From a virus, in IMG/VR virus record IMGVR_UViG_3300025869_000079, positions 1 to 26,779 of that record: DNA of 26,779 nucleotides; one strand, 5' to 3'. Under the pieces are notes generated by a model. That model worked only from the letters and a program-made list of their open reading frames with translations, ran no database searches and was not told the DNA's origin. Below are positions 1-16,367 of this stretch, piece after piece. Each line of letters begins with the position of its first letter. Positions within the stretch are counted from its first letter, which is position 1. The translations under genes and the position numbers were made by a program.

Positions 1-1333
1 CATACAGGAAATCATATTGAATATGATCTGCCATAGTTTCCCAATCTTCGGGAGTGACAACGTTCTTCAGAATTAGTTGAGTTTTCAACATGTCATTGAA
101 CATGTCCGAGAATCTCTTTCTCAGTCTACCAACAAATTTAGAGAACTTAACCTCATCTCTTAAAATTTCAGATGAACGACCCATTGAAAAACCAGTATCA
201 CCTTGGATACGACTTTCGGGAACATTTAATGCTCTATAAAGTTTCTTCTGGAAGTAGTTAATATCAGTAATTTCACCAAGATTCTGACCACCAGGAAGTG
301 TAGTAATTTCAGTTCCTCTACCGCCTTCTCTTCTAGGTAACCAGAAATCTTCCATCATAGACATAAACTTTTTGTCATCTCTGACTTCACCAGTATTAGC
401 ATCATAGACAAGTTTGTTTCTATAACGCATCATCACATCACGCAGGTACTGTTCTGCCTTTTGCTTTGGAAGATTACCAACATCAATGTAGAAGATTCTA
501 CGTTCTGGTGCTCTTGATAAACGATAAATGACGAGAGAATCCTCAATCATCATTAACTGATTAAGTGGTTTGATTGACTTATGCAACCAAGACAATGTTG
601 TTCCTTTATTTCTATCTACCAAACCAGAAGTACAATAGGTGACAGAATCGCGTGTCATTCTGACGCCTTTGGTGGTTTGATTGATAGCACTATATCCACC
701 AGAAGATGTTGAACTTCCTGGATTATAAATGAAAAACTCTTCAATCTCTGGATAATTATAGGTAGTAGGATTGTCTCTGTCTAGATTATTTCTTATACTT
801 TGAACACTATCCTTACCTTTTTTCTTCAACTGACGAATATAACGCATCTTAGATGAGTCAATATATCTTAACTCCTGAATACCATTTTGTGGATTCTTCT
901 GGTCAATAACTTTATTATAGTAAAGTCTTCCATCAATATACCAATTGCGGAAGATTTCGTGTGCCTTTTTATCAAAATCAAGCAGTTCTAGGATATATTT
1001 GAATTCATCCCTTACTTTCTTTTTGATACCATCACTGGCTTTTAGATTAGACAGTTCAATTGAAATAGGACTGTCATTAGTGTCTGATACAATTGCTTCA
1101 TTAACAACATCTTCAATCGCACTATCGCACTCTGGATACAATGCCATTGAGCGATATCGTCTAATTAGATCATTCTCGTTCTTATATTTTCCTTCAATAT
1201 CAACGTAGGAACCATAAAAACCCGACGAGACGTAGTGCTCAGATCCATCTTGGTTAGAAGGTGGAATCGGAGATACTACTCCCGGCGGGTTCTTATCGTT
1301 ATCTTCAATTGAGAATCCAAATAATCTCGCCAT
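1..1333 (-). CDS. 20: Portal vertex protein gp20 (3' end outside window)
   Basis: Portal protein, which forms the dodecameric ring at the unique head vertex through which DNA is packaged and ejected and to which the neck attaches. I read the frame by hand from the ATG at 1333 (MARLFGFSIEDNDKNPPG...); it stays open for 444 codons to the window edge, against about 520-560 residues for full-length T4-type portals, so the C-terminus is missing. Recognisable portal features are the early DLIRRYRSMALYPECDSAI block, the central SLVIYRLSRAPERRIFYIDV segment and RALNVPESRIQGDTGF near the cut end. This is the g20 region widely used as a diversity marker for cyanomyoviruses. It lies downstream of gp19, as in T4. 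A late-promoter-like GATAAATA overlaps the gp19 stop codon and a small hairpin lies before the ATG. No strong ribosome binding site precedes the start. Identity is very secure. Confidence 0.95.
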   Translation of the reverse strand, partial: MARLFGFSIEDNDKNPPGVVSPIPPSNQDGSEHYVSSGFYGSYVDIEGKYKNENDLIRRYRSMALYPECDSAIEDVVNEAIVSDTNDSPISIELSNLKASDGIKKKVRDEFKYILELLDFDKKAHEIFRNWYIDGRLYYNKVIDQKNPQNGIQELRYIDSSKMRYIRQLKKKGKDSVQSIRNNLDRDNPTTYNYPEIEEFFIYNPGSSTSSGGYSAINQTTKGVRMTRDSVTYCTSGLVDRNKGTTLSWLHKSIKPLNQLMMIEDSLVIYRLSRAPERRIFYIDVGNLPKQKAEQYLRDVMMRYRNKLVYDANTGEVRDDKKFMSMMEDFWLPRREGGRGTEITTLPGGQNLGEITDINYFQKKLYRALNVPESRIQGDTGFSMGRSSEILRDEVKFSKFVGRLRKRFSDMFNDMLKTQLILKNVVTPEDWETMADHIQYDFLY

Positions 1334-7958: not shown

Positions 7959-10900
7959 ATAACTTCGTAACTATGACTTGAGAATAGTAATTATTTCCAA
8001 TAGCACTTACATTATGTGGATTACCCATACCATATGCTGAAGATTGGGTTGTAGTACATCTATGTTGTAGTTTAAATTTTTGATTTACATCAGTTGTTGT
8101 ATATATGGTAGATCCCATACTATTAGTTTGTGCATAAAAACCAGAATCTTGACTATATGTAGAAGACCCCCGACCTCTCACAAGAGTTATAGATGTATCT
8201 AAAATCCTTGCAACATGACTATCGCATCTAAAACCTGGTGCTCTAAAATCAATTTTATATGTACCAGCTGCTTTTAAAGTCACTTCTCCTGTACTACTAT
8301 TTAAATCAATAATATCATCACCATCATAAGTAACAGTATTTAAGTCCCTATCCTGCCATGCTCCAGAGGTGAAAGATCCTCCACCAGTTGAAAAAGTTTC
8401 AACTTCATCAATAATAGCAACTGATGATGATCCACCACCTCCACCAGAAGCAGTAACAGTTGCAATACCGCCACTAGCAGTTGCAGTTACATTGGTACTG
8501 AAATTTATTGAAGTTATTCCTGTTCCAACAGAAGTTCCATTATTTTCAATCTCAATACCTGAACTACCCCCACCACCAGAAGAATTGATAGTTACTACTC
8601 CAGTTGATCCAGAGATAGTTACATTAGTTCCAGCAATAATAGAAGTTACAATTCCAGTTAATCCTGTACCAGATGATGTTGCTGTTATAAATCCAGCACC
8701 ATTGGTCAGTTGATTAGTGTTAGTAAATGATGTGGTTATAAATCCAGCACCATTGGTCAGTTGATTGGTATTGGTAAATGATGTTGTAATAAAACCAGCA
8801 CCATTAGTCAGTTGATTATTATTTGTTGGAACTGTTGGTGTATTTGTGAAATTATCATAGTCAAGATAATAAGATGCTGCTTGACTGTTTAGAGTAAAGG
8901 CATTAGTAGCATTGGTTACTGATGTAATTCCACCAATTGTTAGTTGATCTATTTTTTGAAATTCAACAACATCACCATTACTAATAAAGGGTGTCATAGT
9001 CACAACAGACCCATTGGTAGCCGTAAAGTCAACTCCACTTCTCTGTTTAATTCCGTTCAGGAATACATCAATCAAACCAACTTCATATCCACCAGTAATT
9101 GTGAAATTCGTTGTTACACCAGAAGATGTTTCTGTCTGTCTAGTGATTGTTGAGAATGGAATATTAACAGTTACAGTCGTTCCAGACCCTACAATTGTTA
9201 CACCTGCTCCAGTAAATTTAACGTCAGTAAATCCAGTTCCAACACGAACTGATCCCGATTGGATTCCAACACCAGAAATGATATTACTCAGTCCACTACC
9301 ATCACCAATAAATGAAGTAGCAGTAATAACACCAACTGCATTAATTCCACCAGCAAGAACATTAATACCACTTCTTGCAGTAACAATACCAATAGAGTCT
9401 ACGTTCTTGACATCTTCATATGTGATTGTTCCACCAACACTTAGATTGCCAGTGAACTGAACATCACCTACGACATACAGTGACTTTCCTGTTGCAGCAG
9501 ATGAGGTATTAATTCCAACAGATTTGTTAGTAGAAATGCCAATGCTATCAGTGTGCCAAGTTCCTCCAGCACCAACATTGCCACCACTCGCTACTATCCA
9601 CTTATTATTTGGGTCATCCCATTTTAAAATATAGTTGTTTTGTAAACCAGTGATATCAACATCATCAAGATCTTTGATAAAACCTGCTCCACCACCACCC
9701 ATTGTTGAGAGTTGAGTGGTAATCCTATTAATAAAAAGTCTGTAATGATTTGATAGATCATCAAGAGTAGCAAACTTTTGATCAAGCGGTGTTAATGCAT
9801 CAGTTTGCCCACCTGCTTTTTCTTTTTCAGATGGTGGTTCATTAAGAAGATAATTTTCTTGTAACTGCTTTTGATCTTTTTTGATTAACGAGGCAATATC
9901 CTTAAGTTCTCTAACAGTTGATTTTAAAGAATCAACGTCTTTTATGATAGTAGATATTTCATTATCATAATATTTGACTTCTGGAAGTAAATTTACTTGT
10001 TCTTTAAGTTCATTGAAAAACTTTAAAAGTGTTTCATCTGTCTTGATGCTCTGCTCATTGATAGAAGTAATTTCTTTTTCTAACTTCTGTTTTATTTTAT
10101 TCTGCTCACTCAGAACTGCTTTTTTTAGTTTTCTATCATCATCTTTAAATTCTCTGTGATATTCCCAAACTTTTAATGATGACTTACTTAGTTCAGAATA
10201 TATTTTATCTTTAGTTTCAGTTAATCGAGTATTAGTTTGATCAATCTTCTCACTAACATTATCTTTGAGGTTTTTGACATTTATATTTTGTTCAAAATCC
10301 TTTACTTGAATAGTCTCATTAAGTTCTGATACCTCAAAAGATATCTTTTCTTTAATTACGTCAAGATGCCCTTGAACTCTAGTAAAATCTTCGTCAATAG
10401 TATTAAAAGTATTCCCAATCCACCTAAAATCAGGTACATCTCTCGATTTTACTTTATTAAGTTCTTCTACAAGAGATGATATATCACTATCATAGTGTTT
10501 GATTTCAGGTAAAGATGTTATATCTTCTTTTAATTGTGTTATCTTATCATTAATATGTTCAATATCATGATCATAATACCTTATTGTTGGTATTTCAGGT
10601 ATTTTTGATTCAATTTCAGTTAATTTTTCCTCAAGATGTTCATTTTTTACATCTAAGTCATCAATTTTATTACTTTTTTGATCAAACTGTGTAAAATATT
10701 CCTCAATATGAGTTAATTTACTACTTAAATTACTTAATTCTTCATCATAATATTTTATTTCTGGTATTTCTGGTATCTCTTTCCTTAAATCATTAACAAG
10801 GCGTATCAGTTCTGACCATTCTGGTGCAGTCTCTGATAAAACAGGGTCAATATTCTCTATCTCTTCAACTAAAACTTCTTCTTTGGGCGATTCTGTAATA

Positions 10901-11481: not shown

Positions 11482-12489
11482 TTAACTAAATCCTCCATCA
11501 AATCCAAAGTTATCTCCAACTTCAATGAATGAAGCATCTGCTTTAGTGATATTATAGATAGCAGAACCTAAAACGTGCTGCTGAATCGGAGTCTTATCTT
11601 GTGCTCTTCTAACTGTTAACTTATTATCAATTATATTGTCAACGTACATTTGCTCTTCGCCCATGTAGATATATGTTTTCTTGGTAAACTTAGTACCATC
11701 TGAAACTTCAATCACGGTGTCTTCAAAATCAATGTTTGCTGTTAACTGAGCAACTTCACTTCCATTGTAATCTTTTAGTGCTCTTGGTTCTACAGTGTAA
11801 GTAACATCTCTTTCGTACTGAGTTTTTCCTTTTGTTCTTGTTCCTGCAATATATCCAACAGAAACTTTTTCAACAATAGAAGAACTAATATCTGTAAGTG
11901 GTCCGTAAAGATAGGTCTTTGCTGTAAATCTAAAAGTATAAACTAATGCTCTTCTTGTATCAAAGTTGCCTTCATAATCATCTTCCATTGATACATTATC
12001 AAGCACAACTGGAGTATTAACTACTTCTGTTAATCCACTAAGAAGTTTAACCGGTATGGTGTACGCAGGAGTAAAATAGGGTAAAATCTGCTCAGTTATT
12101 TGCAGCATATCATCATTTAGTTTCGTCATTACAGACAATTCAAAAACCATATTATATGGTACTGGCATATATGCTTTTTTAGTTTGCTCTCCGTTATCAC
12201 CAGTTATAACAAACGTTTGAGATTTTGATACTTTTCTTTCGGGATCATAAGTCAAATCAATAAACTCAAAAGACATTCTAGGCAATGTCATTTGAACAGG
12301 AGTATTCAAATCTGGAGTCTGTTCTAATCTTGCTAAGAACTTTTGTGTAGGTCCATAAGCAAGAGGAACTTTGACGACACTCCAAGTCTCATCATTTCCG
12401 TCTTTGTGTTTAATCTCGATACCGTTAAACAGAGAACCAAATGAAATGATTGTAGATCTTAGAATTTCGTTGTAGAAATACTCAAACAT
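11482..12489 (-). CDS. 15: Tail completion / sheath stabiliser gp15
   Basis: Forms the terminal hexameric ring on top of the tail, which stabilises the tube and sheath and joins them to the gp13-gp14 neck. It has 335 residues against 272 in T4. The N-terminus MFEYFYNEILRSTIISFGSL matches the T4 start (MFGYFYN...FRRY). The conserved middle includes VPLAYGPTQKFLARL, TLPRMSFEFIDLTYDP, MVFELSVMTKLNDDMLQITE and QILPYFTPAYTIPVKL, with T4 counterparts in the same order. The roughly 60 extra residues are C-terminal (after about 250: ANIDFEDTVIEVSDGTKF ... GEEQMYVDN), a beta-rich segment like those in other marine-phage structural proteins. It follows gp14 after 39 bases; a weak TTAAATA is there, but cotranscription with gp14 is likely. 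Confidence 0.93.
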   Translation of the reverse strand: MFEYFYNEILRSTIISFGSLFNGIEIKHKDGNDETWSVVKVPLAYGPTQKFLARLEQTPDLNTPVQMTLPRMSFEFIDLTYDPERKVSKSQTFVITGDNGEQTKKAYMPVPYNMVFELSVMTKLNDDMLQITEQILPYFTPAYTIPVKLLSGLTEVVNTPVVLDNVSMEDDYEGNFDTRRALVYTFRFTAKTYLYGPLTDISSSIVEKVSVGYIAGTRTKGKTQYERDVTYTVEPRALKDYNGSEVAQLTANIDFEDTVIEVSDGTKFTKKTYIYMGEEQMYVDNIIDNKLTVRRAQDKTPIQQHVLGSAIYNITKADASFIEVGDNFGFDGGFS

Positions 12490-12528: not shown

Positions 12529-15075
12529 CTAAGGCATTCCAAAAGGATTATTCTCACTAAAATCAATAACTAGACTTGCTTCTCTTTGAATATTATCATT
12601 ATCTGCGAATGGAGTAACCTCGTCGTAAATACCTACCGTTCTGATAACACCAACCGCAGAAGATTCTGAACCAGTGATCGTTTCGCCTGCCTTGAAGTCT
12701 CCACTGACTATTGAAATCTCAAGAGTATTAGCAACTGCATCATACTCTTTAACTCTGGCTGTAGTACCACTAGTTCCACCTGTAACGATTTCATTATACA
12801 CAAATGATCCACTTGATGTAACTATTCCAGCGACTGGTTTTGGTAATGTAACATCTGGCGCTATAACATATTTTGCTCCACCATTTGAAATATAGATGGA
12901 AGTAACGAATCCTGCAGAACTGATAGTAGCAATGCCTGTTGCTTTTACAACTCCATTTACTTCTGTGTAATAGTTTTTCTCTGAGGTATCATTTGAAATT
13001 GTAACAACAGGAGGAGAAGTATATCCACCTCCACCAAATGTTACAGTTATACCTGTTACTATTCCACAATTTTGTATGCCTACTTCAACATTTTGAGTTG
13101 TTGTAGCAAGACCAACAGTGGAATTATTCACAACAAGAATTGAAGATCCAATGCTCGTTACAAAAGTATCTTTTGGTATAATATAAACTCTTTCATATGG
13201 ACTATCATATCCAGTCTGCAGTCTTACACGGTCACCAACTACCATATTAGTGGTATTGATTCCTGTAATAACTGTTGAACCTATACCTATTGTTCCAGAA
13301 GTTATAATAGAATCAAATCTTATTGTAGAAATTCCTGTAGCAATAAATTGAGTACCTATACCACCAGGACCAGCAACTGCGACATCTGGAGTAGAAACAT
13401 ATCCAAATCCACTACTACCAATAGATATGGCACTAATAGTACCAGCAATAGAAACAGTAGCAGTTGCTGTTGCTGTAATCGGTTGAGGATTTGAAAAACT
13501 AATCGTTGGTTGTACTGTATATCCTGCCCCAATAGTTGCTCCAGTTCCGACACACCATAATTTAGTTTCTGTATTGAATCCAACTGCTGTGACAATTCCT
13601 AAGATCGGATGAATAGTAGCAATACCAACTGCTACTTGAGACGGGGTTGCAGTTCCTGTTCCAAGTCCAATTGAAACTGTTGGTGCTGTTGAATATGCTC
13701 GACCTGTTGTAGTAAATGCAACAGAAGTTTCATCAATACTAGATCCATCAACTCCTCCGCCATTATCAATGGTAGCAACTGCTGGACTTGTTCCTGGATG
13801 AGCAATAACAATATCCGGTGCGCTTGTGTAGAATTTACCTTCTGTGGTTATAGCAACTTTTTTGACTGTGCCGCCTGCTAATGCGATTGGATCCATAATA
13901 GCAGAAGCAAGTCCAGCATTACCGCCTCCTGTTGGAGCACCAAAAGTCACCGTAGGTGCCTGTTTATAATAAACACCTCCCGTAGTTCCATATGGGAACA
14001 GATATGCAGATGCACCAATACTAATAGGTGCCTTTACTACACTGACTCCTGCTCCCACTTCTGACGCAGTATTAAGAATAGCAGTTGCTGCGGCACCAAC
14101 ATGTTTTGGAGTTGATATTCCAACAATTGGTGCTGTAATATATCCTCCTCCGCTATTTGCTATTGATACTGTTTGTACAGAACCTGTTGGAACAAGAATA
14201 CTAGTAGCAGCAGCTCCAGCACCAGAAAGACCTCCTCCGTGGAATGTAATAATAGGTGCTACAGTATACCCACATCCAGCATTTGTTACATTTACTGAAA
14301 CTATTTTTCCTGATGTTCCGTCACACCCAATATAATCATAAGTAAGTGATGCTATGCCAACTGCTGTTGTTCCTCCTGGTGCGGAAGAGAAAGCAACTCT
14401 GGGTAGTTCTGTATACCCTCTACCCATATTTGTAATTACAACAGATCCAACAGAACCAGTTATGCACAAATTTGAGGTTGCGGTTGCTTGTGTACTGACT
14501 CCTACAGCAATAAGTCTAAGAGTCTTGATATGACCAATCTGTTCAATTTCTTCGTCAATATCTTCGATTCCAGTATCAATAACTTCATCTTCATATCTGA
14601 AGAGTTCACATCTCAGTGTGTAAACATAGTTCTTCTGTAGTTGATAAAACGGTTGTTCGTGTTCTACATACTTGATTTCAAATAATCTCTCTCCCAATGG
14701 AAAATAGATTAAATCTCCTTCTTTTGGTCTAGTTGCTAGTTCAACATTAGGAAGATTTTTAATTAAAGGAGTAATATAGTCTTCAAACCTTTCTCTAGAC
14801 ACAACCAGAGTTAAATCATCTTTCTCTTGAATGCCGAATCGTGACAATATAGTGCCTTCTCCGCCATAACCATCATAGTTATCTACATATGCCTCAATAG
14901 GATATGCATTATCAAACTCAGATTGTATGACTTCTTTAATTACAGTAAACTTTGTAAGATATTTGCGAGGCATATAATATACCTCAATACCATACATTTT
15001 TAACTGTTCGTTGACGAGACTTTGGATTAATCCTTGTTCTCCCTTAGTTCCGTTTTGAAAAAATGGATTAAGCAT
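12529..15075 (-). CDS. 14: Neck protein gp14, enlarged by an internal repeat array
   Basis: Neck protein that with gp13 completes the head and connects it to the tail. T4 gp14 has 256 residues; this one has 848. Residues 1-190 are the gp14 body (MLNPFFQNGTKGEQGLIQSL, VYYMPRKYLTKFTVIKEVI, GDLIYFPLGERLFEIKYVEH, VYTLRCELFRYEDEVIDTGI). The last 31 residues are the normal gp14 C-terminus (DNDNIQREASLVIDFSENNP and FGMP). Between them lies about 625 residues of Gly/Ala/Thr-rich repeats with about ten GxGYxxxPxVxF-type motifs, plus one SGTTARVKEYD...GETITGSESSA module near the end. The insert therefore splits a conserved protein while leaving both ends intact. It starts 4 bases after the gp13 stop. 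The repeats probably form a beta-structured decoration of the neck (inference). Confidence 0.92.
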   Translation of the reverse strand: MLNPFFQNGTKGEQGLIQSLVNEQLKMYGIEVYYMPRKYLTKFTVIKEVIQSEFDNAYPIEAYVDNYDGYGGEGTILSRFGIQEKDDLTLVVSRERFEDYITPLIKNLPNVELATRPKEGDLIYFPLGERLFEIKYVEHEQPFYQLQKNYVYTLRCELFRYEDEVIDTGIEDIDEEIEQIGHIKTLRLIAVGVSTQATATSNLCITGSVGSVVITNMGRGYTELPRVAFSSAPGGTTAVGIASLTYDYIGCDGTSGKIVSVNVTNAGCGYTVAPIITFHGGGLSGAGAAATSILVPTGSVQTVSIANSGGGYITAPIVGISTPKHVGAAATAILNTASEVGAGVSVVKAPISIGASAYLFPYGTTGGVYYKQAPTVTFGAPTGGGNAGLASAIMDPIALAGGTVKKVAITTEGKFYTSAPDIVIAHPGTSPAVATIDNGGGVDGSSIDETSVAFTTTGRAYSTAPTVSIGLGTGTATPSQVAVGIATIHPILGIVTAVGFNTETKLWCVGTGATIGAGYTVQPTISFSNPQPITATATATVSIAGTISAISIGSSGFGYVSTPDVAVAGPGGIGTQFIATGISTIRFDSIITSGTIGIGSTVITGINTTNMVVGDRVRLQTGYDSPYERVYIIPKDTFVTSIGSSILVVNNSTVGLATTTQNVEVGIQNCGIVTGITVTFGGGGYTSPPVVTISNDTSEKNYYTEVNGVVKATGIATISSAGFVTSIYISNGGAKYVIAPDVTLPKPVAGIVTSSGSFVYNEIVTGGTSGTTARVKEYDAVANTLEISIVSGDFKAGETITGSESSAVGVIRTVGIYDEVTPFADNDNIQREASLVIDFSENNPFGMP
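12840..14457 (-). repeat. GxGYxxxPxVxF protein-repeat array within gp14
   Basis: At the protein level this stretch encodes about ten related units of roughly 50-60 residues. Each is centred on a motif such as GRGYTELPRVAF, GCGYTVAPIITF, GGGYITAPIVGI, GAGYTVQPTISF, GFGYVSTPDVAV or GGGYTSPPVVTI, preceded by a short IVSVNVTNAG-type strand and followed by a GxGAxAxA stretch. DNA identity between units is low, so the duplications are old. Confidence 0.75.
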
Positions 15076-15983: not shown

Positions 15984-16367
15984 TTAGACCGTAGAAATTC
16001 CAGAATACACATTGATATTACCTCTGGCAATGCTATAAGTGCTACTTCCTATAGAAGCAAAGATATCATACTCATATCTTCCACCTTTTATTTGTCTATT
16101 AAGAGTGTCAGATAGCGTAATCTTAAATTCTCCCGCACTAGCACTTGTAATTGATTCTGTAAAGTTTGCCACCACATCCATTGATGCTGCTTGACCAGTG
16201 GATTTCATCATTCTTGAATGCATCGTATGGGAAGTCAAATTATAGTTTGACCTATCATTATTCAAAATCTTAAATGTCTCTTCAAAATCAACACCAGTAT
16301 ACATTGTAAGGTTTACCCCATAAGGAGTTCTTACTGAAGGATCAAAGGTAATTGTATTATTTGCCAT
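15984..16367 (-). CDS. Small beta-rich virion protein, 127 residues
   Basis: Predicted virion protein with alternating beta-strand character throughout. It runs NTITFDPSVRTPYGVNLTMY, TGVDFEETFKILNNDRSNYN, TSHTMHSRMMKSTGQAASMD, GEFKITLSDTLNRQIKGGRY and YDIFASIGSSTYSIARGNIN. The order of strands, with 'GRYEYDIFA' followed by a GxI-V-G-type end, resembles small immunoglobulin-like or fibre-attachment domains seen in phage baseplate accessory proteins; this is a fold impression, not a homology claim. It overlaps the upstream 74-residue gene by 11 bases, so the two are translationally coupled. No T4 counterpart is obvious at this position. Probably a fibre or neck accessory protein made together with the giant structural protein. 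Confidence 0.8.
   Translation of the reverse strand: MANNTITFDPSVRTPYGVNLTMYTGVDFEETFKILNNDRSNYNLTSHTMHSRMMKSTGQAASMDVVANFTESITSASAGEFKITLSDTLNRQIKGGRYEYDIFASIGSSTYSIARGNINVYSGISTV

Follow-up and report, generated by a model that had tools for sequence, protein, structure and literature searches.

Why does gp14, a head-closure protein of 256 residues in phage T4, reach 848 residues in an uncultivated relative? The question is raised by a 26.8-kb virus fragment (IMG/VR record IMGVR_UViG_3300025869_000079), referred to here as the window, which is 26,779 nt long. The minus-strand genes of the window follow the T4 order: the end of gp7, gp8, a DUF4815 protein, a small protein, gp13, gp14, gp15, gp16, a fibre-like protein, gp17, gp18, gp19 and gp20, with gp16 and gp18–gp20 assigned by position and by reading of their sequences. 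The gp17 protein is 85–87% identical to gp17 of the cultured cyanophages S-SCSM1, P-TIM68 and Bellamy, so the source is likely a marine T4-like virus of the cyanophage type (Kyanoviridae-like). A tandem 51-bp repeat (2.9 copies, window positions 8676–8823) lies inside the fibre-like gene P0005 that follows gp16.

The enlarged gene is adjoined by gp13 and gp15, and the order gp13-gp14-gp15-gp16 (gp16 by position) is that of T4. A sequence-only reading had placed an 848-residue gp14 at positions 12529–15075; these limits are exact and the strand is minus. The features of the locus are as follows.

11482..12489, minus strand: gp15, 335 residues, the tail-sheath stabiliser on which T4 gp14 docks (Pfam T4-gp15_tss, E 2e-82).
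12529..15075, minus strand: gp14, long form, 848 residues, ATG start (open reading frame and translation; Pfam T4_neck-protein; PHROG 460, head closure Hc2).
12529..12627, minus strand: residues 817–848 plus stop, conserved NPFG tail and proposed gp15-docking end (NPFG survey; T4 arm-gp15 contact).
12628..12825, minus strand: residues 751–816, small C-terminal beta domain, SGSFxxNE..SGTTARV..GExIxGSESGA (also found in S-SM1 gp14, where GYTxxP repeats are missing; combined with strand 183–190 it matches gp7 barrels of T4-type phages at VIA-align Z 7.3–7.8).
12826..12939, minus strand: residues 713–750, last repeat, common to the short forms (alignment, repeat profile).
12940..14124, minus strand: residues 318–712, extra module, net about 375 residues, made up of some six additional repeats plus a beta domain (absent from short gp14s in the alignment; full module in 65 distinct complete gp14s).
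13078..13320, minus strand: residues 586–666, non-repeat beta domain inside the module (not matched by the repeat profile; best VIA-align hit a 124-residue chain of Arthrobacter phage Bridgette at Z 8.0, with phage tail chains scoring lower).
14125..14505, minus strand: residues 191–317, repeats 1–3, also present in the usual gp14s of 440–500 residues (alignment, repeat profile).
14506..14529, minus strand: residues 183–190, proposed first strand of a small barrel that would be completed after the repeats (model strand E3-9; VIA-align ranges 1..636; S-SM1 alignment).
14545..15075, minus strand: residues 1–177, gp14 core, in T4 an N-terminal loop, a helix and a barrel with stopper loop (T4 gp14 chain match 2–171; T4 anatomy from PMC12270204).
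15080..15952, minus strand: gp13, 290 residues, the ring above gp14 (PHROG 211; alignment with T4).

The identity of the protein is given by its N-terminal part. Pfam T4_neck-protein matches residues 1–168 (E 1e-29) and the T4 gp14 chains of the PDB match residues 2–171 (E 4e-26), while PHROG 460 (head closure Hc2) matches the protein with an E value of 1.5e-132. Homology to T4 gp14 thus ends near residue 171, short of the 190 N-terminal residues that had been thought to match. In T4 gp14 the core barrel ends at residue 177, and the arm that follows (178–256) is flexible or disordered until the tail joins, when it contacts gp15; the protein forms a hexameric ring that docks under the gp13 dodecamer (PMC12270204). 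The extra mass of the window protein lies outside the core fold, as had been supposed, since it follows the ring-forming core, in the position of the T4 arm. T4 gp14 (PF11649, PHROG 679; PDB 9lu4, 9mkb) therefore resembles the window protein in the core, in its place between gp13 and gp15 and, weakly, in its C-terminal end, but has neither the repeats, nor the small beta domain, nor the module.

The region after the core consists largely of beta repeats of about 42 residues with a "GYTxxPxV" motif. A repeat profile recognizes 10 units in the window gp14, the best with 44 bits, against a maximum of 0.3 bits in 100 shuffles; the profile was built from units of the same gp14 family, and hence shows repetition rather than an independent family match. 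Tandem Repeats Finder reported no repeats in the gene, because the copies are too diverged in DNA. The block of about 625 residues described previously as repeats is only partly so, since it also contains a non-repeat beta domain at about 586–666 and the small C-terminal beta domain at about 751–816. A profile of the C-terminal domain retrieved no convincing solved relative. NPFG occurs within the last 9 residues in 266 of 269 distinct gp14s, and by analogy with the T4 arm this tail may dock on gp15. The proposed match of the last 31 residues to gp14 is strong with respect to other kyanovirus gp14s and only weak for T4 (SFESSPFDN versus DFSENNPFG).

In order to judge how unusual the window protein is, the sizes of related gp14s have to be considered. 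The usual gp14 of this marine group has 440–500 residues, comprising the core, about four "GYTxxPxV" repeats, the small beta domain and the NPFG tail. Cultured cyanophage gp14s (P-TIM68, P-SSM2, S-SM2; PHROG 460) share all these parts with the window protein and lack the module of 375 residues, those of P-TIM68 and P-SSM2 measuring 469–470 residues. S-SM1 gp14 is shorter (308 residues), with the core, the small beta domain and NPFG near its end, and with none of the repeats found in the window. A search with only the core yielded 72 complete gp14s: 61 of 450–500 residues and 11, including that of the window, of 836–851. A larger set of 306 distinct complete gp14s, whose counts are not frequencies since core-based and module-based scans were mixed, contains 65 with the full module, all of 830–869 residues, and 241 without it, about 195 of which have 440–519. 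The window protein, with a full-length module between repeats 3 and 4, belongs to the long form. The enlargement from about 256 to 848 residues noted from the sequence is real, but T4 is the wrong reference: growth beyond the T4 size is normal in the group, and the unusual part amounts to about 375 residues.

Other large gp14s owe their size to other causes. A class of 757–763 residues has a Laminin-G-like insert, as shown for Synechococcus phage Sf-FS3, whose gp14 (762 residues) resembles the window protein in having a large insert after the same core, the repeats and the NPFG tail; this insert holds a Laminin_G_3 domain, detected by Pfam in Sf-FS3 and absent from the window gp14, rather than the window's module. 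The Sf-FS3 gene (L083:2998-5286) and its relatives of the same size among loci L120–L165 form a separate class, in which this neck protein has been elaborated a second time and independently. The gp14 of S-8S55 is large through more repeats, and those of L118 and L119 have the module without its middle. At L116:3538-6513 a gp14 of 991 residues combines the module with about 120 further residues at a repeat boundary, with glycine-rich stretches on either side. The gp14s of L324 and L212 (545 and 563 residues) contain additional sequence within the C-terminal domain that looks, by eye, like the window beta domain 586–666, as if that domain had moved independently.

The module is restricted to gp14. 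Its profile identified 273 confirmed stretches in IMG/VR and, among the loci examined, full modules occur only in gp14 frames or in frames truncated at a contig end. Two partial cases were also seen: L394 has a partial frame of 339 residues with half the module and without the core, which may be a broken gp14, a frameshift or a sequencing error, and L240 has a gp14 frame that ends early (373 residues, no NPFG), perhaps for one of the latter two reasons. The window module gave no match at E 1e-5 against 50,697 phage records, and no cultured phage among those searched carries it. For a divergent copy, the matches at E up to 1 were weak and of the repeat type. When bacterial and archaeal genomes were scanned by pattern, no relative of the module was found. 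Profiles of the module and of its beta domain retrieved no convincing solved relative, and the beta domain had no confident Pfam match. No photosystem genes (PF00124) were found in the module-bearing records, which are genome fragments.

A first structure model, of the whole gp14 with 20 near relatives, reached a pLDDT of 46 and was set aside for fold claims. A second, of residues 181–848 with 54 sequences, has a mean pLDDT of 74.9 and many short beta strands. Foldseek found nothing in the PDB at E <= 0.001, and matches in BFVD were largely to other marine phage structural proteins. VIA-align matched the model to the gp7 barrel of T4-type phages (Z 7.3–7.8) and to aIF2-gamma over a range from residue 1 to 636 of the model, only about 70 residues being aligned, namely the strand before the repeats and the domain after them. 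These ranges, together with the S-SM1 alignment, suggest that the repeats and the module are an insertion in a loop of a small beta barrel; we put this no higher than a suggestion because the Z values concerned are under 8. The best match of the beta domain 586–666, to the Bridgette chain, covers 65 residues at 1.6 A, and Z values of up to 8 can arise from common arrangements.

Gain or loss of the module has occurred repeatedly. On a tree of the gp14 core (134 rows) module presence needs 11 changes, and well-supported branches force 7 of them, which sets the minimum; FastTree trees of P0006, gp13, the gp14 core and gp15 for 88 common loci give 7–10 changes. Comparison of closely related contigs delimits the segment concerned. 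L022 (gp14 of 842 residues) and L011 (462 residues) are mostly 85–97% identical in DNA before and after the segment, and about 60% identical with a large gap between gp14 nucleotides ~525 and 2400. In this pair and in L006/L007, the post-core segment of gp14 is the only place where identity drops steeply. The simplest reading of these alignments is that the whole post-core segment has been exchanged by homologous recombination in the conserved flanks.

Phages with and without the module have gp13, gp15 and gp16 of similar length, and the fibre-like gene after gp16 is present with both gp14 forms. A link between the module and P0006 (window 15984–16367, the small gene before gp13), prompted by a dip in identity upstream of gp13, was tested and is unsupported: P0006 and its counterparts in L022, L015 and L011 show local divergence (66–80%, versus about 90% between otherwise near-identical contigs) that does not track the gp14 module. 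As no neighbouring gene tracks the module, no partner for it was identified.

The module is under purifying selection. Conservation among long forms is 0.71–0.82 in the module, comparable to 0.78 in the core, and 0.59–0.64 in the flanking repeats and barrel, while median dN/dS (up to 140 non-independent pairs) is 0.03 in the core and about 0.16 in the module and flanks. With an intact frame and this level of constraint, the expectation of the sequence-only reading that the enlarged protein is probably functional holds. The nearly fixed length of the module and its conservation argue for a specific fold and function, and against both neutral slippage and fast antigenic change.

These data bear on how the long form should be explained. 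That it is an artefact of repeat assembly in metagenomes is barely credible: the module is so far known from IMG/VR contigs only, yet 65 distinct complete full-module sequences from many contigs have the same length and an open frame, the 273 stretches are confirmed, and selection acts on the protein. Removal of the extra block before assembly, by an intein, an intron or proteolysis, would leave a short mature gp14 in keeping with the size otherwise conserved in T4. This is very unlikely, given that Pfam detects only T4_neck-protein in the window gp14 at E up to 0.1, with no intein or endonuclease domain, and that the block has an open frame, consists of the repeats that also flank it and is under protein-level selection. 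Repeat numbers do vary in some relatives, such as L118 and L119 with their incomplete module and S-8S55 with its additional units, as would be expected had the repeats grown neutrally, or nearly so, through slippage and unequal crossing-over and served no particular function. We consider this improbable as well: the DNA copies are too diverged for recent slippage, the survey of gp14 lengths shows two narrow size classes instead of a continuous range, and there is a single module type, conserved in order and length and under purifying selection.

A less easily dismissed alternative, though still an unlikely one, is that the post-core region is a fast-changing display surface, comparable to a tail-fibre tip, that binds cell-surface sugars or evades host defences, the long form being one variant of many. 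Swapping of the segment between near-identical backbones, the lectin-type insert of the Sf-FS3 class and the further domain inside the module of L116 would all fit such a surface. The module of the long forms, however, is as conserved as the core, hardly varies in length and has a low dN/dS; also, the neck fibre of Anabaena phage A-1(L) has a distal carbohydrate-binding part, and this failed to bind the host (PMC10966104).

The explanation that we favour, and regard as probable, is a neck decoration or collar built from an insertion in a loop of gp14, whose post-core segment is exchanged by recombination. Residues 1–177 would form the head-closure ring and be followed by a small beta barrel, with the chain of ~42-residue beta repeats sitting between its first strand and the rest. 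In the window phage and some relatives, the conserved module of ~375 residues would be added between repeats 3 and 4. Recombination in the gp14 core, the gp14 tail and gp15 would exchange the post-core segment, with or without the module, between phages, and the NPFG tail would still be docked on gp15. If gp14 is hexameric as in T4, each virion would carry six copies of the module. Repeats and module would presumably project outwards round the neck, a location that the sequence-only reading had proposed and that fits these data. There they may serve as a decoration or, in phages without fibritin, as a collar bracing the neck or nearby fibres. Mass spectrometry detected S-SM1 gp14, a short form, in virions (PMC3037559), which supports gp14 being a virion protein in these phages.

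Known neck appendages offer partial parallels. The T4 fibritin (wac) collar and whiskers, which sit on gp13 domain III (PMC12270204), would be a comparable decoration if the gp14 module projects outwards; fibritin is a separate trimeric coiled-coil protein bound to gp13, unlike a module built into gp14. The fibritin C-terminal domain was found in T4 and not in the complete genomes of P-TIM68, P-SSM2 and S-SM1, the module-bearing records being fragments. Also, kyanovirus gp13s, that of the window included, lack much of the fibritin-binding segment (domain III, T4 190–239), which is mostly gap in the alignment of the window gp13. The failure to find that domain in three cultured relatives and the reduced binding segment of gp13 make a gp14-built collar attractive and plausible as a candidate role. 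The bead-chain neck fibres of the Anabaena myophage A-1(L) (PMC10966104) are likewise a cyanophage neck appendage with repeated beads, but they are separate proteins (gp80–gp82) on a pentadecameric ring, whereas in the window the head-closure protein itself is enlarged. Nothing direct on imaging of the cyanophage neck or collar was found in the literature. A bolder version, possible if doubtful, is that cyanophage-type T4-like phages without fibritin build their collar from gp14 as six long loops on the head-closure ring, with alternative versions (short repeats, long module, lectin-bearing) recombining as alleles between near-identical phages.

Elaborated T4-type gp14s as such were already known; what appears to be new, from sequence comparison, is a conserved, gp14-specific module of ~375 residues that has been repeatedly gained or lost. 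Head-closure proteins are usually regarded as conserved, buried parts of the connector, and here gp14 carries large, modular and exchangeable additions. Many uncultivated marine phages share a module of nearly fixed length and sequence, whose presence has nevertheless changed again and again. In abundant ocean phages gp14 is thus a candidate site of neck morphology, and perhaps also one where they interact with the host or the environment.
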